From Acidimicrobiales bacterium (GTDB taxonomy: Bacteria > Actinomycetota > Acidimicrobiia > Acidimicrobiales > Acidimicrobilacustridaceae), in the NCBI GenBank assembly GCA_030830565.1, contig JAURMR010000018.1, positions 1 through 34,736 on the forward strand: 34,736 nucleotides of DNA. The letters run 5' to 3'. The first letter of the stretch is position 1, and every line of letters begins with the position of its first letter. Below are positions 5,599-31,803 of the stretch, in pieces. Below the pieces are notes generated by a model. It saw only the letters and a list, made by a program, of their open reading frames with translations. It did no database searches and was not told the origin of the DNA. Made by a program: the position numbers and the translations under genes.

Positions 5599-6447
5599 TC
5601 AGACGTCGAAGGTGTGGCGTCCACCAATCAGCACCACACGACCATCTTCACCGCGGGTTTGGAAGATGCATTCGCCAGCGCCTTCGTTCCACATCTCGAT
5701 GGTGAGTTCTTCGCCCGGGAACACCGGCGATGCAAAGCGACCTTCCATCGAACGGAACTTGGCGGGGTCGGAATCGCACATCGAGTGCAACAACGCACGA
5801 CCGGTGAAGCCGTAGGTGCAGAGGCCGTGAAGGATCGGGCGATCAAAACCAGCGAGCGCCGCGAACCACGGATCGGAATGCAACGGATTGCGATCACCCG
5901 ACAGCCGGTACGTCAGTGCTTGATCGGGGCGCACGCGATAGGAGACCAAAGCATCAGCAGCGCGATCGGGGGCAGCGTTGCGATCACCCGAGGGGCCTCG
6001 ATCTCCACCCCATCCACCTTCACCACGGATGAAGATTGCTGAGCCAACAGTTAGCAACATTTCGCCTGTTGCGTTGTCGACGCATTCGCCTTCAACAGCA
6101 ACGACAGCGCCTGAACCCTTGTCGTAGATGCCGACAATCTTCCCGGTTGCGGTCAGCGAACCTTCAACAGGAATTTCACGGTGCTGCACGAATGACTGCT
6201 CGCCATGCACGAGCATTGAGAAGTCGAATGGACCGATTGCGCTGGTTACACCGCTTACACCAGCACCGATAACTGCTGCCATGGTGGGCAGCACTCGCTG
6301 TGGCACGTCGTGGCTGTTCTCTGTCGTAAACGCGAGTTCATCGATACCTGCGCCCACGCCAACCGCATAGAGGAGCGCATCTTTCGATGTCCATGAATGA
6401 ACAACCGGCGCACCTTCGGCACCGACAACGTCGTGATTGATCGGCAT
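5599..6447 (-). CDS. MaoC-family (R)-specific enoyl-CoA hydratase (double hot-dog)
   Basis: This 282-residue double hot-dog protein of the hydratase-2/MaoC family resembles the hydratase part of peroxisomal multifunctional enzyme type 2. It should add water to trans-2-enoyl-CoA to give (R)-3-hydroxyacyl-CoA. The hydratase-2 signature lies at 180-209 in the C-terminal domain, with catalytic Asp185, Asn187 and His190. The N-terminal hot-dog domain lacks this motif, as is usual. It follows the SDR gene upstream by only 8 bases on the same strand. The pair recreates as two proteins what eukaryotic MFE-2 carries as a fusion. Confidence 0.9.
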   Translation of the reverse strand: MPINHDVVGAEGAPVVHSWTSKDALLYAVGVGAGIDELAFTTENSHDVPQRVLPTMAAVIGAGVSGVTSAIGPFDFSMLVHGEQSFVQHREIPVEGSLTATGKIVGIYDKGSGAVVAVEGECVDNATGEMLLTVGSAIFIRGEGGWGGDRGPSGDRNAAPDRAADALVSYRVRPDQALTYRLSGDRNPLHSDPWFAALAGFDRPILHGLCTYGFTGRALLHSMCDSDPAKFRSMEGRFASPVFPGEELTIEMWNEGAGECIFQTRGEDGRVVLIGGRHTFDV

Positions 6448-6455
6448 TATTCGAA

Positions 6456-7358
6456 CTACTTCCGATCGAGACCGAGCATGTCGGCGTTGGGACGGGCAGA
6501 TGCCATGAGTTCTTCAACGAGCGGACCAACACCAGATGGATCGAGCGTGTTGGTGACCTTGGGACCCTGGTGCCAACTTTCGCTAATGGCGAGAAGTTCG
6601 CCGCGCACATCAAAGACACGGCCAGTAACACCTGCTGACTCTTCACTCGCAAGCCACACCGTGATCGGAGCTATCCACTTGGTCGACATCGCTTCCTTGA
6701 CTTCTTCCGGAGCATCGCCAATTCCAAGATCAGCAGTGAGTCGCGTCAGCGCAGCCGGAGCGATTGCATTGACGGTGACCCCGTAACGGCCAAGTTCATC
6801 GGCTGCGATGATCGTGAATGAGGCAATTCCGCCTTTCGCAGCGCCGTAATTGGTCTGGCCGATGTTGCCGTAGATGCCAGAAGGCGACGTCGTGTTAATG
6901 ATGCGCGCGTTGTTCGTTTCGCCCGCCTTCGAACGATCTCGCCAATAGGCCGCAGCAAAGTGCGAAGGACCAGCAGTTCCCTTGAGATGCACCTTGATGA
7001 CGGCATCCCATTCGGCTTCGCTCATGTTGGTGAGCATGCGATCACGCAAGATGCCGGCGTTGTTGATGAGAACGTCGAGACCCCCGAACGTCGTGATCGC
7101 TTGATTGATCAGATTCTCAGCACCTGACCAATCGCTGATGTCGTCAGTGTTGGCAACGGCTTGACCACCTGCTGCAAGAATTTCGTCGACGACTTCCTGT
7201 GCCGGACCTTGATCGACACCAGTGCCATCGCGGGATCCACCGAGATCGTTCACGACGACTTTGGCTCCCTCAGCTGCGAGCAGCAATGCGTAGTCGCGCC
7301 CAATGCCTCGACCTGCTCCGGTAACGATGCACACTCGGCCTTCACACAGTCCTGCCAC
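6456..7358 (-). CDS. SDR, (3R)-hydroxyacyl-CoA dehydrogenase-like (MFE-2 type)
   Basis: This is a classical short-chain dehydrogenase of 300 residues. The cofactor motif TGAGRGIG is at 13-20, NNAG at 99-102, and the catalytic Ser158, Tyr171 and Lys175 are present. The long insertion around residues 40-52 and the C-terminal extension after about 250 resemble the dehydrogenase domain of multifunctional enzyme 2 (HSD17B4). This suggests oxidation of (R)-3-hydroxyacyl-CoA, perhaps on bulky or sterol side-chain substrates. I chose the GTG start at 7358 because AAGGGAG lies 8-9 bases upstream. It is the first gene of a two-gene operon with the MaoC hydratase, which would supply its substrate. Confidence 0.85.
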   Translation of the reverse strand: MAGLCEGRVCIVTGAGRGIGRDYALLLAAEGAKVVVNDLGGSRDGTGVDQGPAQEVVDEILAAGGQAVANTDDISDWSGAENLINQAITTFGGLDVLINNAGILRDRMLTNMSEAEWDAVIKVHLKGTAGPSHFAAAYWRDRSKAGETNNARIINTTSPSGIYGNIGQTNYGAAKGGIASFTIIAADELGRYGVTVNAIAPAALTRLTADLGIGDAPEEVKEAMSTKWIAPITVWLASEESAGVTGRVFDVRGELLAISESWHQGPKVTNTLDPSGVGPLVEELMASARPNADMLGLDRK

Positions 7359-7551
7359 GATGACGTCTCCCTTGTGAGTTCAGTTCTGAAGGCCGATTGT
7401 GACACGGCCCGTTCAGAGCCGCCGAGGCCGGGTATCACCCCTGAGCAACGGAATTGCACCCCATCGACGCCTTCGACGCCCTCGACGCCCTCAGGGGCCC
7501 CAGAATGCCCTCTGAGGCCTCTGTCACACCCATTCCGTAGGTTGGAGCGGT
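7359..7551. other. Divergent intergenic region with a 9-bp triplet repeat and a hairpin
   Basis: This 193-base region separates the leftward SDR operon from rightward rmuC. TCGACGCC(C/T) is repeated three times in tandem at 7464-7490. Just after it, CCTCAGGGGC at 7489-7498 can pair with 7507-7517 (one bulged T, 8-base loop). TAGGTT at 7538-7543, 8 bases before the rmuC ATG, is a candidate -10. No gene is visible. Confidence 0.5.
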
Positions 7552-8739
7552 ATGACCGCTCTTCTCCCCACCCTGACCCTCCTCGTCGGCCTCGCGCTTG
7601 GCGCGCTCATCGGCACGCGTGTTGGCACTCGCCGCTCGAACAATGAGTCACTCGACGTCGATCGCACCCGCGACATCGCAAACGCCACCTTGGCCACCAC
7701 CATGCGCGAACTCATCGATGTCAATACCCGACTTCAGGCCGAAGCTAGTGCTCGTGCTGCGGCCGAAGCAGCGCAACAACAGAAGTCGGTACACGACCTC
7801 GTCGCGCCGGTCGGCGAGCACCTTTTGCGGCTCGACCAAAAGCTCAACGAACTTGAGATCAAGCGCGTCGAAGATTCCGGCCGCTTGAACTACAGCATCG
7901 GGTCGCTGACCACTCTTGCGTCATCTCTGCAGAAAGAAACCGCCGAGCTGGCATCTGCTATGAAAAACACCAAGGTCCGAGGCAACTGGGGCGAACTTCA
8001 GTTGCAACGCGTCATCGAACTTGCAGGCATGACCGAACACGTCATGTACGAGCAACAGGAACACATTTCAACCGATGGCGAAGCCGCACGACCCGACATG
8101 ATCGTGCGTCTCCCCGACGCCAAGAAGATCATTATCGATGCGAAAGCACCAATGTCTGCCTACCTCAATGCAATCAATGCGGATTCCGATAGTGATCGTG
8201 AACAACTGCTGACAAAGCACGCCGCCGATGTCATGGCCCATGTCAATGCACTCGCCAAGAAGAACTACGCGTCACGCGTCGATGGTTCACTCGACTTCAT
8301 TGTCATGTTCGTACCTGGCGACACCTTCCTCACTGCAGCCTTCGACGCCAACCCGGAGTTCCTCGAACAAGCGATTGCGAAGAATGTTTTTCCCGCTTCA
8401 CCCGGAACGCTCATCGCACTTCTGCGCGCCATTGCCTACGGCTGGCGTCAGGAACAGCTGGCCGAAAACGCCGCACAGGTCGTCGCTCTCGGTAAGCAGC
8501 TCTACGAACGTGTCGGAGTCTTTGCTGGCCACCTTCAAAAAGTCGGCAACAACCTCACCAAGGCCACCGAGTCCTACAACTCAGCGGTGGCCTCACTCGA
8601 GACCAGAGTCATGCCCACTGCTCGCGGGTTCGAATCACTCGCCGTTGCGTCCGATCAGGCCTTACCCGGGGTCGCCCCGATCAACGTCACCACCCGTCAG
8701 GTCTCTCTTCCCGAGCTCAACGCCGGCACCGAGGACTAA
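7552..8739 (+). CDS. rmuC: RmuC-family DNA recombination protein
   Basis: This 395-residue RmuC-family protein has an N-terminal membrane helix at about 4-24, a long predicted coiled coil at about 50-150, and then a restriction-endonuclease-like core. The core contains the family signature RGNWGELQLQ at about 143-152 and a region with IIIDAKAP, carrying nuclease-type Asp and Lys. RmuC limits inversions between short inverted repeats in E. coli; the mechanism is not settled. The ATG at 7552 is preceded by GGAGCGG, which could serve as a ribosome binding site, or by TAGGTT as a leaderless -10. The gene is single, and the desaturase downstream has its own promoter. Confidence 0.92.
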   Translation: MTALLPTLTLLVGLALGALIGTRVGTRRSNNESLDVDRTRDIANATLATTMRELIDVNTRLQAEASARAAAEAAQQQKSVHDLVAPVGEHLLRLDQKLNELEIKRVEDSGRLNYSIGSLTTLASSLQKETAELASAMKNTKVRGNWGELQLQRVIELAGMTEHVMYEQQEHISTDGEAARPDMIVRLPDAKKIIIDAKAPMSAYLNAINADSDSDREQLLTKHAADVMAHVNALAKKNYASRVDGSLDFIVMFVPGDTFLTAAFDANPEFLEQAIAKNVFPASPGTLIALLRAIAYGWRQEQLAENAAQVVALGKQLYERVGVFAGHLQKVGNNLTKATESYNSAVASLETRVMPTARGFESLAVASDQALPGVAPINVTTRQVSLPELNAGTED

Positions 8740-19706: not shown

Positions 19707-20168
19707 TCAGCCGTAGTGCCAATCTCGTTCCGGCGGCGCGGCGTATTCAATGCACTGCACATCGAACCAAATCGGCAAGAGATACTTCACGTAGAACGCG
19801 TGGACCGTGCTCGCTGGATTCACAAGGTCGTCGTAGACCTTAAGCTGAATGCCAGGTTCGGACGTCTGCATCTCAGCAATACGCGAACACAGTGAGTCGA
19901 CTTCTTCTCGCGTGTCATGCAAAAGACCGAGGTGGTCGTAACCAGGCGATGACATTGGATTCGGATTTTCGGCCAAGAGAATGAACTGCGTCGCTCGTTC
20001 ATCGAGCATCATCAACAATCCGTTCTGACCAAGAATTTCAACGTCCTTGCACTCCCAGCCAAACAGGTCTCCGTAGAAGGCTCGGACTTGATCGCGAAAT
20101 TCAGGTGTGAGCGTGCCGGGTGCGAATGTCAGTTCCATGTGGTTGAAGCGCATCATGGAGTCGACCAT
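19707..20168 (-). CDS. Single-domain VOC metalloprotein next to the phosphonate-ester hydrolase-like gene
   Basis: This 153-residue VOC-fold protein starts at ATG 20168; a GTG at 20195, directly abutting the sulfatase-superfamily stop, is an alternative. His10, His79 and Glu141 fit the classical VOC metal triad found in glyoxalases and in thiol transferases such as FosA. It follows the phosphonate-monoester-hydrolase-like gene on the same strand by 27 bases and should share its transcript. Function is unknown. A role on a phosphonate or a hydroxylated by-product is inference from position only. GAGGTGA lies about 13 bases before the ATG, somewhat far for a ribosome binding site. Confidence 0.75.
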   Translation of the reverse strand: MVDSMMRFNHMELTFAPGTLTPEFRDQVRAFYGDLFGWECKDVEILGQNGLLMMLDERATQFILLAENPNPMSSPGYDHLGLLHDTREEVDSLCSRIAEMQTSEPGIQLKVYDDLVNPASTVHAFYVKYLLPIWFDVQCIEYAAPPERDWHYG

Positions 20169-20195
20169 AGAGCGATCTGATTCACCTCGCCGCAC

Positions 20196-21614
20196 CTATG
20201 GGAGAAACGTTCCCGTGAGCGTTCGATCGGTGTGCTGTGCTCGCCAAGCCAACATCGCCCGGGCTTCGGCCCATGCTCGCTCAGGATCAGCAAGCATCGT
20301 CCGCCAGGTTGGATCAGCAGAAATGTCATAGACAAGCGCTTCGCCATCGGCGAACTGCACATAGGCAACGTCATCGCTTCGGCGCACCGTGAGTTGGTGC
20401 CCGACACTTCGACGATCCTGCGGCCACTTCGCACCATCACGACCCGGCGTGAAAAACCGCCAGTCAAATTCCCAGTAGGCCGCATCGCGCCACTCTTGCG
20501 GCACTTCACCTTCGAGGAACGGTCGCAAGGACCGACCATCACACTGACGAGGAACGTCGAGAGCAAGCAATTCACACACAGTCGGAAAGACATCGACTGC
20601 TTCGGTGAAAACCTCGATGACAGTCCCGGCTGATTCCGGCGATCGTGGATCTCGAACGATGAGTGGGATATGGAAACTCTCCTCAAACCAACCCATCTTT
20701 TGGACCATGCCGTGATCGCCGAGTTGTTCACCATGGTCTGAGGTCACGATGACGATCGTGTTCTCCCATTGACCCATCTCGCGTAACGCGTCCCACACTC
20801 GACCAAGTTGCTGATCAACATCGCTGATCATTCCGTAGTACTGCGCGCGCATCTCACGCAGTCCGTCCTCGTCAGTGGATGCTGCGAAGTACGAAATCGA
20901 CAACAGGAATTCGTGCAGCGGATGTAGCTGCGATCCTGGGCGATTGGGAAGATCCACTGCGGAACGTTCATATGCCGTCGACCACTCCCCCGCCGCAGAA
21001 AATGGTGGATGTGGTCGGAGATGGCTCAAGTGCGCAAACCAGGGTTCGTCTTGTTCGGGCAACCACTCAAGGAAACGATTCGTGAGAAACGCGCTGATGC
21101 CAACCTCTGCAGGCCGCTGCGATTCAGTGGCGAGTCCCTCTTCCGGATCAACTGGCATTTCGTAACCCAGCGCGCGCACCCAGTCCGCCCAAGCCTCACG
21201 TCCACGGGTGAGATCGAGCTCACAACGAAAGCCGGGTAATACGCCTTCATAGGTGAGCAGGCGAGGATCATCTTCAGGGACTGTTCGGGGATCGACAGCC
21301 TGATCGGTGTAACCAAACAGAACCGGGTCGTAACCATTCCGACGAGCCGCCAGCGCGATGTTGTCGAACCGATCGTCAAGCGGCGATCCATTCATCACCA
21401 CACGGTTATTCATTTGGTACGTGCCGGTGTACAACGCCGCGCGACCCGGGGCACATGGCGACGCTTGCCCATAGTGCTTTGCGAACCGAACGCCTTCGCC
21501 GCACAGTGCATCGAGGGAGGGCGTCTGCACGACTGGGTGACCGGCTGCCGAAAGGCATCCCGCACGAAACTCGTCAAGAGTGACGAAAAGGACGTTAGGG
21601 CGGGAGTCGGCCAT
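20196..21614 (-). CDS. Formylglycine-dependent sulfatase superfamily, phosphonate monoester hydrolase-like
   Basis: This 472-residue alkaline-phosphatase/sulfatase superfamily enzyme carries the formylglycine motif CAPGR at 54-58 (Cys54 to be oxidised), metal Asp14, and the SDHGEQLGD block starting at 292, with Lys306 near by. Several stretches recall phosphonate monoester hydrolases (PMH) of Rhizobium and Burkholderia as I remember them: MNNR after the active site, an LHLGY-like HLSHLRPHPPF, QCDGRSL, and a C-terminal WR-x-HTDRTLT. PMHs split phosphonate monoesters and also sulfate and phosphate esters promiscuously. An ordinary arylsulfatase is the alternative. I chose ATG 21614 because TACGCT lies exactly 6 bases upstream; 21662 would overlap the divergent gene. 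Confidence 0.82.
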   Translation of the reverse strand: MADSRPNVLFVTLDEFRAGCLSAAGHPVVQTPSLDALCGEGVRFAKHYGQASPCAPGRAALYTGTYQMNNRVVMNGSPLDDRFDNIALAARRNGYDPVLFGYTDQAVDPRTVPEDDPRLLTYEGVLPGFRCELDLTRGREAWADWVRALGYEMPVDPEEGLATESQRPAEVGISAFLTNRFLEWLPEQDEPWFAHLSHLRPHPPFSAAGEWSTAYERSAVDLPNRPGSQLHPLHEFLLSISYFAASTDEDGLREMRAQYYGMISDVDQQLGRVWDALREMGQWENTIVIVTSDHGEQLGDHGMVQKMGWFEESFHIPLIVRDPRSPESAGTVIEVFTEAVDVFPTVCELLALDVPRQCDGRSLRPFLEGEVPQEWRDAAYWEFDWRFFTPGRDGAKWPQDRRSVGHQLTVRRSDDVAYVQFADGEALVYDISADPTWRTMLADPERAWAEARAMLAWRAQHTDRTLTGTFLP

Positions 21615-21649
21615 GCCCGGAGCGTAGGACACGGGCCTAGCATCGCGAC
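21615..21649. promoter_or_regulatory. Overlapping divergent leaderless promoters (PMH-like / PhyH-HD)
   Basis: Only 35 bases separate the two start codons. Leftward, TACGCT (complement of 21621-21626) lies 6 bases before ATG 21614. Rightward, TAGCAT at 21638-21643 lies 6 bases before GTG 21650. The two -10 elements are 11 bases apart, so each promoter's -35 region must fall in the other gene. Joint regulation is therefore likely. I see no Pho-box direct repeat. Confidence 0.6.
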
Positions 21650-22417
21650 GTGGACCAGCCATTCTTTGACACCATCGAACCCGGGCCTGATGCCGCTGAG
21701 CATTTCAATCGATTCGGTTGGGTCCTTACGGAACCGCTTCAGCCCCAAGCCGTCGCTGAATTGCGCGAATGGGTCGACGAGCTGATGTCGTGGCCTGATG
21801 ACGGACCGTGGCTCCACTATCGCGAAGCAACATCGAACGGACCGAGACTGTGCCGCACCGAAAACTTTGTGCCGTTCCACGACGAGTTACGCGAACTGCT
21901 GACTCGGAGCGAGCTTTCCGACACCGCCTCAATTCTTCTCGACGAGAGTGCGGTCCTCTACAAAGAGAAGATCAACTACAAAGCCGCCGGAGGCGCTGGG
22001 TATTCACCTCACCAAGACGCGCCCGCTTATCGATTTATCGAAACTCACGTTTCATGCATGTTGGCGATCGATGACTCACGCGAAGCAAATGGCTGCCTTG
22101 AAGTCGTCTCGTCGATGCACCACGAAATCTTGCCGATGGATGAAAAGGGATGCATCCGGTCAGATGTCGTCGAACAACTTGAGTGGACGCCGGCGCCGAT
22201 TTGGGCCGGCCAAGCACTCTGGTTTCATTCACGAACTCCCCATCGAAGTGGTCCGAACACCTCCACCCAACCTCGTCGTGCGATCTATCCCACCTACAAC
22301 GCACTCCGTGAGGGCGATCTCCGAGAGGCGTACTACGAGCAGAAGGCGAAAGAGTTCGCGTCGGCCGATGGCCCTCGCGTCTCACTCATCGGCGACTTCG
22401 AGGGACAGATGCTCTGA
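21650..22417 (+). CDS. PhyH-family Fe(II)/2-oxoglutarate dioxygenase, PhnY-like
   Basis: This 255-residue phytanoyl-CoA-dioxygenase-family protein has the iron facial triad His121, Asp123 (HQD) and His198 (TPHRSGPN), with an Arg pair about 10 residues on for 2-oxoglutarate. The family hydroxylates varied small molecules; the marine enzyme PhnY hydroxylates 2-aminoethylphosphonate. The PhnY assignment rests mainly on its partner: the next gene, overlapping by one base (TGATG), is a PhnZ-like HD oxygenase. I chose GTG 21650, supported by TAGCAT 6 bases upstream and the lack of an earlier start. A generic PhyH role remains possible. Confidence 0.8.
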   Translation: MDQPFFDTIEPGPDAAEHFNRFGWVLTEPLQPQAVAELREWVDELMSWPDDGPWLHYREATSNGPRLCRTENFVPFHDELRELLTRSELSDTASILLDESAVLYKEKINYKAAGGAGYSPHQDAPAYRFIETHVSCMLAIDDSREANGCLEVVSSMHHEILPMDEKGCIRSDVVEQLEWTPAPIWAGQALWFHSRTPHRSGPNTSTQPRRAIYPTYNALREGDLREAYYEQKAKEFASADGPRVSLIGDFEGQML

Positions 22418-22968
22418 TGACGCCCGCATCGATTGATTCCGTTCTTGAGTTGTACTCTTCGTTCGGAAACGAGAACTACGACGAGGATGTCAGCCAACTT
22501 GCGCACGCGTTGCAATGTGCTGCGCTTGCCAGCCGTGATGGCGCAAACGAGGAACTAATCGCGGCCGCTCTTCTCCACGACATTGGCCATCTCTTTGAGA
22601 TCCAACGCAACAATGGCCCCGACCACCAGACAGATCTTCGCCACGAGCACGCCGGCGCTGAGTTTCTTCGTGGGCTGTTCCCCGAATCAGTCACAACAGC
22701 AATTGCGCTGCACGTCGAAGCAAAGCGGTACCTCGCCGCGAACGAACTCGACTACTTCGATGCTCTTTCACTCGGCTCGAAGCGGAGCCTTGAAGTGCAG
22801 GGTGGGCCATTTACAGCACAAGAAAGTTCCGCATTCCTTGCGCGTAAAGGAAGCTCAGACGCAGTCGCTCTTCGTCGTTGGGATGATCACGGAAAAGTGA
22901 TCGATCTTGCGGTCCCAGAATTTGCGACTTGGATCCCGCTCCTCAAACGAGTTTCGATCTCCGAGTAG
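22417..22968 (+). CDS. HD-domain mixed-valence di-iron oxygenase, PhnZ-like
   Basis: This 183-residue HD-domain protein should bind two irons. PhnZ cleaves the C-P bond of hydroxylated 2-aminoethylphosphonate with O2, releasing phosphate and glycine. Metal ligands expected by comparison are all seen: His30, His54-Asp55, His76, His99 and Asp156. His58 follows the HD pair (HDIGH). Residues expected around the phosphonate are also in place: Lys103 (HVEAKRYL), Ser121 before LEVQGGP, and Arg153 three before Asp156. Tyr21 and Glu23 lie in the mobile N-terminal segment. An ordinary HD phosphohydrolase would not share the LEVQGGP block. The alignment is from memory of PhnZ. The stop abuts the convergent next gene. 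Confidence 0.78.
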   Translation: MTPASIDSVLELYSSFGNENYDEDVSQLAHALQCAALASRDGANEELIAAALLHDIGHLFEIQRNNGPDHQTDLRHEHAGAEFLRGLFPESVTTAIALHVEAKRYLAANELDYFDALSLGSKRSLEVQGGPFTAQESSAFLARKGSSDAVALRRWDDHGKVIDLAVPEFATWIPLLKRVSISE

Positions 22969-30740: not shown

Positions 30741-31673
30741 TTACTCGTCGGCGACGAGCGCGTACGACCTATTGCCGGCACTATCGACGGGGATATCCCC
30801 CGCCAATGTGATTCGTTCGTGACATCGGTGCATGCCCTTAGGGATATCGGTTGGAACGATGTGTGCGGTGGCCCGGTTGTCCCAGAACGCAATGCTTCCC
30901 GGTTCCCATCGGAACCGCACGGTGAATTCCTGACGCTGAAGGTGTTCATAGAGCATCGCCAGAATGTGGTTGCTCTCTCGCCGAGACAGTTCGACGATGT
31001 AGTCCGTGAAGTTGGGTTCCACGAAGAGAACTTTCTCACCCGTTTCTGGGTGGACTCGGACAACGGGGTGAACAGCGCGGAGCGGACGCGACATAAACGC
31101 TTTTGCAACCTCGCCGGGAAGTTCCCCTCGGTCAATCGGGAGCGCGTTGTGGTTCACCGCATGCAATCCGTCAATAAAACTTTGAATTTCGGGAGAAAGA
31201 AAGTTGTACGCCATCGCAAGATTCGACCATTGGGTGTCACCCCCGTACGGCGGCACAACAACAGCGCGAAGAATCGAAGCCATCGGCGGCGCCTCAATGA
31301 ACTTCACGTCGGTGTGCCAGCGACTCTCGATTCTCGTTCCACCCGAGCCCTTCTTTTCCTTGACGTTCGCCGTCCCTTGTTGATTATCAAGCAACAAGAT
31401 TTCGGGATAGTCAGGAAACGCCGGCGGAAACGTGGGATGCCCTGGAAGGGGCTCACCAAAGGCCCGAGCAAGTGCAAGATGCTGATCGCGATCAATGAAT
31501 TGGTCTCGAAAGAACACCACCTTCCACTGAAGAAGGGTCGCGCGGATTTCCGCAACCACTGCTGGCTCAAGGGGTTTCGTGAGATCGACACCAAAAATCT
31601 CGGCGCCGGTGTACCCCGTCATTGGTCGAATATCGAGTCCGAGTTCGGTCGCCTGCGATACGTGTTGTTCCAT
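30741..31673 (-). CDS. TauD/TfdA-family Fe(II)/2-oxoglutarate dioxygenase
   Basis: This 310-residue TauD-type dioxygenase has iron ligands His120 and Asp122 (WHTD) and distal His271 in WDNRATAH, with Arg287 in HRCHER binding 2-oxoglutarate. Family members hydroxylate taurine, alkyl sulfates, 2,4-D or fatty-acyl compounds. The substrate here is not clear. I chose ATG 31673, where AAGGGGGA lies 4 bases upstream; the longer in-frame reading starts in the divergent intergenic region. A perfect 6-bp palindrome hairpin (30744-30758) lies at the 3' end and could serve as terminator for the convergent Sap-family gene. Confidence 0.9.
   Translation of the reverse strand: MEQHVSQATELGLDIRPMTGYTGAEIFGVDLTKPLEPAVVAEIRATLLQWKVVFFRDQFIDRDQHLALARAFGEPLPGHPTFPPAFPDYPEILLLDNQQGTANVKEKKGSGGTRIESRWHTDVKFIEAPPMASILRAVVVPPYGGDTQWSNLAMAYNFLSPEIQSFIDGLHAVNHNALPIDRGELPGEVAKAFMSRPLRAVHPVVRVHPETGEKVLFVEPNFTDYIVELSRRESNHILAMLYEHLQRQEFTVRFRWEPGSIAFWDNRATAHIVPTDIPKGMHRCHERITLAGDIPVDSAGNRSYALVADE
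30744..30758. terminator. Small hairpin between convergent Sap-family and TauD genes
   Basis: CTCGTC at 30744-30749 pairs with GACGAG at 30753-30758 around a 3-base loop. It sits within the last codons of the leftward TauD gene, 16 bases after the rightward stop. Stem length is modest and no T run is present. Confidence 0.35.
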
Positions 31674-31803
31674 CAGTCCCCCTTGATTTCCCCGGTCCAC
31701 ACTAGAGCCACCGATCCGAGGTGTTGGGCGCAACAGATGTCACTCCGAATCGCAATTTCGGTGCTCTACTTAGAACTACTGATTTCCACGTTCCGGAGAA
31801 ACG
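31674..31803. promoter_or_regulatory. Divergent intergenic region TauD / lipoprotein
   Basis: These 130 bases contain no gene. TAGTGT (complement of 31699-31704) may be the -10 of the leftward TauD gene, leaving a short leader with an AAGGGGGA ribosome binding site. A rightward promoter must lie before the GGAGAA site at 31795-31800; I could not pick one -10 with confidence. Confidence 0.35.

Follow-up and report, generated by a model that had tools for sequence, protein, structure and literature searches.

Phosphonate monoester hydrolases (PMHs) are well studied in vitro; to our knowledge, their natural substrate is not settled. Oxidative pathways of phosphonate degradation are described for 2-aminoethylphosphonate (PhnY*/PhnZ), methylphosphonate (GmPhnY/GmPhnZ) and trimethylaminoethylphosphonate (TmpA/TmpB), and a fungal protein, PhoF, is a PhnY-PhnZ fusion (PMC10574752). 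Natural phosphonates are partly esterified, for instance in dissolved marine polysaccharides, and in Sulfitobacter a phosphonate ester hydrolase (PEH) has been proposed to free phosphonates from dissolved polysaccharides ahead of C-P lyase (PMC5649143). Here we analyze a stretch of 34,736 nucleotides (the window), which forms the beginning of contig JAURMR010000018.1 of an Acidimicrobiales bacterium with a genome of 2.0 Mb, rated 71% complete. The window encodes a PMH-type formylglycine hydrolase, a PhyH 2-oxoglutarate dioxygenase and an HD-domain oxygenase (HD), a trio that, judging from sequence, would constitute a cytoplasmic pathway taking phosphorus from a phosphonate monoester. We assign this reading a probability of about 0.6.

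In the proposed pathway, the hydrolase, with a formylglycine derived from Cys54, would cut the P-O-C ester and release the phosphonate. The PhyH dioxygenase would hydroxylate the alpha carbon of the freed phosphonate, and the HD oxygenase would then split the C-P bond of the alpha-hydroxyphosphonate, yielding phosphate and a carbon product. This order of steps is proposed because of the chemistry of characterized relatives, as given in parts of PMC10574752 and PMC8177086. Inspection of the hydrolase shows no signal peptide, and an analogous hydrolase is fused to the oxygenases in relatives; the ester is therefore probably small, imported and cleaved in the cytoplasm. These two features make such an ester a better fit than extracellular cleavage of a polymer, which the initial annotation had listed among the possible substrates. 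Likely substrates would be small importable esters such as a deacylated phosphonolipid head group (glyceryl ester), the phosphonate part being methylphosphonate, 2-aminoethylphosphonate or a relative. The general idea of the initial annotation, ester hydrolysis followed by oxidation, gains from the re-assembled and fused versions found in relatives; its substrate remains a prediction.

The strongest support for the pathway comes from relatives in which an HD oxygenase and a TmpA-like dioxygenase are fused to an alkaline-phosphatase-superfamily domain of a second kind. A search of 298 genomes of the order located HD at 84 places, spread over 82 genomes (E up to 1e-22). Of these places, 78 lie outside the genus of the window, and we examined the flanking sequence of every one; the order sample, like one of 396 genomes from the phylum, was drawn evenly and is not complete. 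At 14 loci (L191, L193, L196, L197, L199, L200, L202-L208 and L209, the last at 5742-8084 on the plus strand), a PF01663 domain (NPP/PhnA-like, alkaline-phosphatase superfamily) lies in one frame with the HD domain. A TmpA-like dioxygenase follows in 12 of them, as complete frames of 764 to 971 residues in ten and cut by contig ends in two; L202 encodes a complete hydrolase-HD protein, and the fusion frame of L193 is cut. The three fusions that were scored exceed the cut-off of PF01663 (73-85 bits, cut-off 23) and stay under those of the TmpA model NF049936 (263-311 bits) and of TIGR03276 (147-168 bits). Among the sequences covering them, three sets of residues do not vary: T57, D21, D161, H165, D203, H204 and H211 in the hydrolase domain, the ligands of the HD domain, and H606, D608 and H747 in the dioxygenase domain. 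The fusion apparently carries the whole phosphonate-ester pathway in one chain. In the phylum sample it was matched in two genomes, both from the same order as the window.

A separate NPP-like gene lies 36 to 43 bases from HD in five further loci. At one of these, L039 (8453-13700, plus strand), genes for PhyH, HD and an NPP-like hydrolase precede those of an ABC transporter that comprises two permeases and an ATPase with a CBS domain. We take the build of this transporter to resemble that of quaternary-amine importers, and the set hints at an ester of the trimethylaminoethylphosphonate type. We rejected an assignment of the fusion hydrolase as a phosphonoacetate hydrolase, the three scored fusions reaching 20-28 bits against a cut-off of 407.55; with the same model, three of the five separate NPP-like neighbors reach 27-40 bits and the other two give no match. 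A PhnA-like C-P hydrolase is formally still conceivable for the fusion.

The trio itself recurs in changing surroundings. In 19 of the 21 genomes of the genus, the source genome included, Phn-HD is matched strongly, at E 1e-38 or better; G009 and G014 have weak matches only. PhyH adjoins HD in 18 of these 19 loci and PMH in 16; the loci without the full trio (L007, L012, L030) stop at a contig end, and the trio is present in 16 of 16 assessable genomes, again counting the source. Both sampled genomes of a sister genus in the same family (G027, G034) keep PMH-PhyH-HD, and none of 11 other window genes queried was found in their 20-kb stretches, which argues against mere inherited gene order. 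In another family (f46; genomes G274 and G081, loci L210 and L216), PMH, HD2 (a diverged HD subfamily) and PhyH stand in a row on one strand. Family scans back the whole trio of L210 and the PhyH of L216, while the remaining two L216 genes rest on tblastn. The pairing proposed in the initial annotation is thus not unique to the source genome, being seen across the genus, a sister genus and another family.

Further variants involve HD2, which keeps the metal ligands and the K/S/Q/R residues described below and lacks the loop Tyr. In L128, PMH-HD2 faces a PhyH gene whose product is 63% identical to the window PhyH, and in L085, L098, L100 and L101 PMH-HD2 occurs with no PhyH detected. In a quick tree of the PMHs (87 of 88 rows used, one dropped for length), those linked to HD1 cluster as one group (support 97). 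Those linked to HD2 need three changes, of which the starred branches force only one; several origins of the PMH-HD2 linkage are suggested. A GDSL/SGNH esterase gene is found near PMH-HD2 in L098, L100 and L101, and near PMH in L088, L118 and L139, where no HD lies within the stretch examined. The esterase is possibly a phosphonolipid deacylase, and its position next to some PMH-HD2 pairs would fit phosphonolipid deacylation.

Linkage was also counted over the 78 HD loci outside the genus. PhyH is the only partner in 26, TmpA in 8 and NPP in 5; TmpA and NPP occur together in 12, PhyH and PMH in 3, PhyH and NPP in 2, and 22 have neither hydroxylase nor hydrolase. A hydrolase (PMH or NPP-like) is thus within 3 kb or fused in 22 loci, a PhyH or TmpA-like gene in 51, and both in 17. 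Over the whole order sample, HD is present in 82 genomes, PMH in 66 and both in 38, where independence expects about 18 (odds ratio 5.8, p 4e-9; with the genus excluded 4.9, p 3e-7; Fisher tests ignoring kinship). Set beside the 7 phnY*Z clusters given for 19,425 complete bacterial genomes in part of PMC8154272, the 51 of 78 loci suggest that the oxidative route is common in this order, the two figures coming from different searches and not being like for like.

A number of observations weigh against a coupled pathway. Across the PMH family at large there is no fixed association with HD genes: 28 of the 66 PMH genomes of the order sample have no HD, and of 80 PMH loci scanned (the best 80 of 326 relatives), 60 lack both HD and PhyH within 3 kb, including L078 and L093 with PhyH-HD about 9-10 kb off. 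The rest have HD within 3 kb (18) or a PhyH gene on a contig that ends before HD (2). Outside the genus-like clade, 3 of the 35 PMH loci with 3 kb on both sides are linked. Three plasmid PMH loci examined (of 37 records) have no annotated HD or PhyH and eight plasmid HD loci examined (of 28 records) no annotated PMH, the gene tables being incomplete in both cases. Around the characterized PehA of R. leguminosarum, the annotation lists ABC-transporter genes and neither PhyH nor HD. On the protein level, the window hydrolase scores 417 bits with the PehA model NF045661 (cut-off 900) and is therefore not PehA itself, and PhyH scores 251 bits with the methylphosphonate hydroxylase model NF052437 (cut-off 500). 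PMHs also cleave phosphate diesters, according to part of PMC5649143, and a phosphate ester is a possible substrate of the hydrolase. Finally, the classical formylglycine-generating enzyme (FGE, PF03781) is unmatched in 20 of the 21 genus genomes, the source genome included, with a partial match in G009. The anaerobic sulfatase-maturating enzyme (anSME, TIGR03942), over its cut-off in 11 of the 21 genomes and at 462 bits in the source genome, is the likelier PMH maturase. G002 (99% complete) and G012 (100%) show weak radical-SAM matches only and no anSME above cut-off; neither maturase is apparent in them, yet both retain the trio and the CxPxR cysteine of the PMH.

The alternative best served by these points is that PhyH and HD are an ordinary PhnY*/PhnZ pair for free 2-aminoethylphosphonate or methylphosphonate, next to a phosphodiesterase of PMH type that shares low-phosphate regulation and neighborhood with them. 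Most PMH relatives stand without a nearby HD gene, as does PehA of R. leguminosarum, and PhyH alone accompanies HD in a third of the loci outside the genus (26 of 78), all of which suits such a division of labor. It accounts less well for PMH being repeatedly linked to two HD subfamilies and for an alkaline-phosphatase-superfamily domain sharing one polypeptide with HD and dioxygenase domains. Repeated linkage and fusions point to a hydrolase coupled with phosphonate oxidation, and we regard separate functions as unlikely, though a serious contender.

The nature of the hydrolase bears on a second alternative. Its closest solved relatives are 4uph (deposited as a sulfatase, which we take to be probably an Agrobacterium PMH), 2w8s (PMH of B. 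caryophylli), 2vqr (PehA of R. leguminosarum) and 4upk, with 4upl and 4upi ranking behind. As described in part of PMC5488252, PMHs differ from related arylsulfatases by a Tyr in place of Lys and an Asp or Thr in place of His, most PMHs having Asp. In our alignment, the window hydrolase carries Tyr and Asp at both positions. It is identical to PehA at 9 of 11 active-site positions (positions checked against the sequence), the two differences being Asp for Thr107, typical of the D-PMH type, and Glu for Gln13. The cysteine of the CxPxR motif, the predicted formylglycine precursor, is present in the window hydrolase and in all 15 other hydrolase frames covering the motif. We predict that the enzyme is a D-type PMH relative distinct from PehA; the resemblance to PMHs noticed in the initial annotation is borne out by this Tyr/Asp signature, the arylsulfatase signature being lacking. 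The hydrolase could instead act on a sulfate ester, its place beside the phosphonate pair being accidental or serving another nutrient. Its Pfam family call is Sulfatase, six PF00884 matches occur in the source genome, and the enzyme class is promiscuous (in part of PMC5488252). We consider this improbable in view of the Tyr and Asp residues, the order of its solved relatives, in which 4upl and 4upi come behind 4uph and three structures deposited or described as PMHs, and a PMH linkage that is kept across genera.

The HD protein belongs with PhnZ and TmpB by both sequence and fold, as the initial annotation had supposed in calling it PhnZ-like. It scores 215.2 bits with TIGR03276 as annotated protein and 214.6 in the genome search, barely at the cut-off of 214.6, and 149.5 and 152.0 bits with the TmpB and hydroxymethylphosphonate dioxygenase equivalogs NF049941 and NF052439, under the cut-offs of 300 each. 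TmpB (E 2.9e-31) and PhnZ (E 2e-30) are its sole solved sequence matches at E up to 0.001. A fold search with its AlphaFold model (mean pLDDT 90.2) returned 10 matches at E up to 0.001, every one TmpB or PhnZ (TM 0.78-0.84 by query); beyond these, the next fold match has a TM of 0.36 and myo-inositol oxygenase one of 0.55. The PhnZ-type residues claimed earlier are present and invariant in an alignment of 11 sequences, namely the di-iron motif (H30, H54, D55, H76, H99, D156) and the phosphonate site (K103, S121, Q128, R153). PhnZ and TmpB have a YxxE substrate loop, as described in part of PMC8177086. In the window protein this loop is Y21-D22-E23 (YxE), one residue short, and for this reason we do not file the protein as PhnZ or TmpB proper. 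On plasmids of Variovorax and Nostoc, HD relatives sit inside annotated C-P lyase clusters; an Asticcacaulis plasmid has one near phnX. That the protein is a phosphohydrolase, as its narrow pass of TIGR03276, the two failed cut-offs and the shortened loop might suggest, is highly improbable in view of its invariant metal and K/S/Q/R residues, a fold search confined at E below 0.001 to TmpB and PhnZ, and the phosphonate gene clusters that house its relatives.

The PhyH protein scores 85.2 bits with PF05721. Members of this fold family bind Fe through an H-x-D...H triad, and H121, D123 and H198 are invariant among 11 aligned sequences. Its sole match among phosphonate models is the methylphosphonate hydroxylase NF052437, under the cut-off, and 2-aminoethylphosphonate is therefore one candidate among several. 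The earlier suggestion of a 2-aminoethylphosphonate-type substrate survives in this form; the PhyH profile matches do not single it out. For uptake, PF12974 matches 8 of the 21 genus genomes; 7 of these genomes exceed the 27-bit cut-off, the highest score being 33.7. We rejected these as true PhnD, since 10 of 14 control genomes are also over the cut-off and the matches are no evidence.

The positions of the trio and the adjacent features are given in Table 1.

Table 1. Coordinates of the trio, the divergent promoter region and the adjacent VOC gene in the window.
Feature	Position	Strand	Remarks
PMH-type (D-PMH) formylglycine hydrolase	20196..21614	-	472 aa from proposed ATG; predicted nucleophile Cys54, CxPxR
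Divergent promoter region, 35 bases	21615..21649	.	Two -10-like hexamers, each 6 nt from start codon
PhyH 2-oxoglutarate dioxygenase, PhnY*-like	21650..22417	+	255 aa, GTG start
HD-domain oxygenase, TIGR03276 Phn-HD family (PhnZ/TmpB type)	22417..22968	+	183 aa
VOC-fold gene, directly downstream of hydrolase	19707..20195	-	Judged non-core; neighbor in part of genus

The four open reading frames of the initial annotation are all present where it had placed them, with the one-base overlap of PhyH and HD (22417). The longest reading frame of the hydrolase spans 20196-21662. Its true start is probably the ATG at 21614, because in two congeners (L011, L046) the longer reading is interrupted by a stop codon after its residue 15, upstream of this ATG, and because a -10-like hexamer sits 6 nt before each of the two starts. 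The claimed divergent gap of 35 bases is exact with this start. Both hexamers, TAGCAT facing PhyH (21638-21643) and TACGCT facing PMH (minus strand, 21621-21626), are identical in five of seven congener stretches and have one base changed in the other two. Leaderless transcripts may arise from both divergent starts.

The VOC gene, which had been considered as a possible fourth component, probably belongs outside the pathway. Its protein barely exceeds the Pfam Glyoxalase cut-off (21.6 bits, cut-off 20.6), and H8, H77 and E139 (numbering of alignment A5) are invariant in eight sequences, compatible with the His/His/Glu triad noted before. Nine of the 21 genus genomes lack the gene; one of them, G012, is rated 100% complete and contains the trio. 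In the sister genus the homolog is far from the trio, and in L051 the gene is relocated, still inside the cluster. The structure model (mean pLDDT 55.4) is too poor for a fold search. Despite these absences, VOC identity among close congeners is about 86-89%, against about 67-73% for HD. The SDRs, the alpha/beta hydrolase, the diaminopimelate (DAP)-dehydrogenase-like protein and the epimerase were likewise rejected as pathway members: they are conserved in the genus, and a search of the 20-kb stretches of G027 and G034 yielded none of them. A TauD-family dioxygenase (PF02668, 208 bits) is encoded about 8 kb from the trio (30741-31733, minus strand).

Elsewhere, L146 (Dietzia plasmid) and L147 (Rhodococcus plasmid) have a common six-gene set with PhyH and HD, which also includes a methionine-synthase-II-like gene, a 2-oxoglutarate oxygenase and a GPR1/FUN34/YaaH transporter; a divergent beta-propeller gene and a MurR/RpiR regulator are found there as well. 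A viral link gained no confirmation: none of 245 pattern matches in viral contigs was confirmed, and one phage record has an HD match. This 62-kb Pseudomonas phage record (OQ658365.1) contains an unannotated PhnZ-like HD frame (61055-61567), 46% identical to the window HD, at the record end; it may be host DNA.

We see slightly better than even odds for a general bacterial phosphonate-monoester pathway in which an alkaline-phosphatase-superfamily hydrolase (PMH or NPP-like) is coupled, and sometimes fused, to a 2-oxoglutarate hydroxylase and an HD C-P-cleaving oxygenase. If so, the fused form would perform ester hydrolysis, alpha-hydroxylation and C-P cleavage on one polypeptide, and D-type PMHs would obtain a physiological role, at least in these lineages. 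Because natural phosphonates are partly esterified, a route that leads from ester to phosphate and bypasses C-P lyase would add to what is known of the phosphorus cycle, in this case in actinobacterial metagenome-assembled genomes. The gene sets and three-domain fusions make the pathway directly testable with few purified proteins.

In the open-licence PMC literature (subscription papers lying outside the search), we found neither a PMH gene linked to an oxidative pathway nor the three-domain fusion, and no co-occurrence of the terms "phosphonate monoester hydrolase" and "PhnZ". The idea that a PMH acts before C-P cleavage is already in print (in part of PMC5649143); its link to the PhnY/PhnZ route appears new. 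As described in PMC10574752, PhnY*/PhnZ, GmPhnY/GmPhnZ and TmpA/TmpB resemble the window pair in combining a 2-oxoglutarate hydroxylase with a subsequent HD di-iron oxygenase encoded side by side. The window pair differs in its linked ester hydrolase and its YxE loop, and its PhyH and HD stay under the cut-offs of the characterized equivalogs of these pathways. Like PhoF as described there, the fusions of the relatives join hydroxylase and HD oxygenase in one chain; unlike this two-part protein, they add an alkaline-phosphatase-superfamily domain and their dioxygenase is TmpA-like. The window hydrolase shares most active-site residues, the CxPxR motif and overall length with the known PMHs (2vqr, 2w8s, 4upk, 4uph), from which it is distinguished by its linkage to a C-P-cleaving pair, and from PehA of R. 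leguminosarum in being of D-type rather than T-type, with Glu at the Gln13 position. As in the Sulfitobacter proposal, a PMH would free the phosphonate from its ester before C-P cleavage; there the relevant part of the source describes a C-P lyase and co-occurrence (PMC5649143), whereas the window has an oxidative type of cleavage and adjacent genes.

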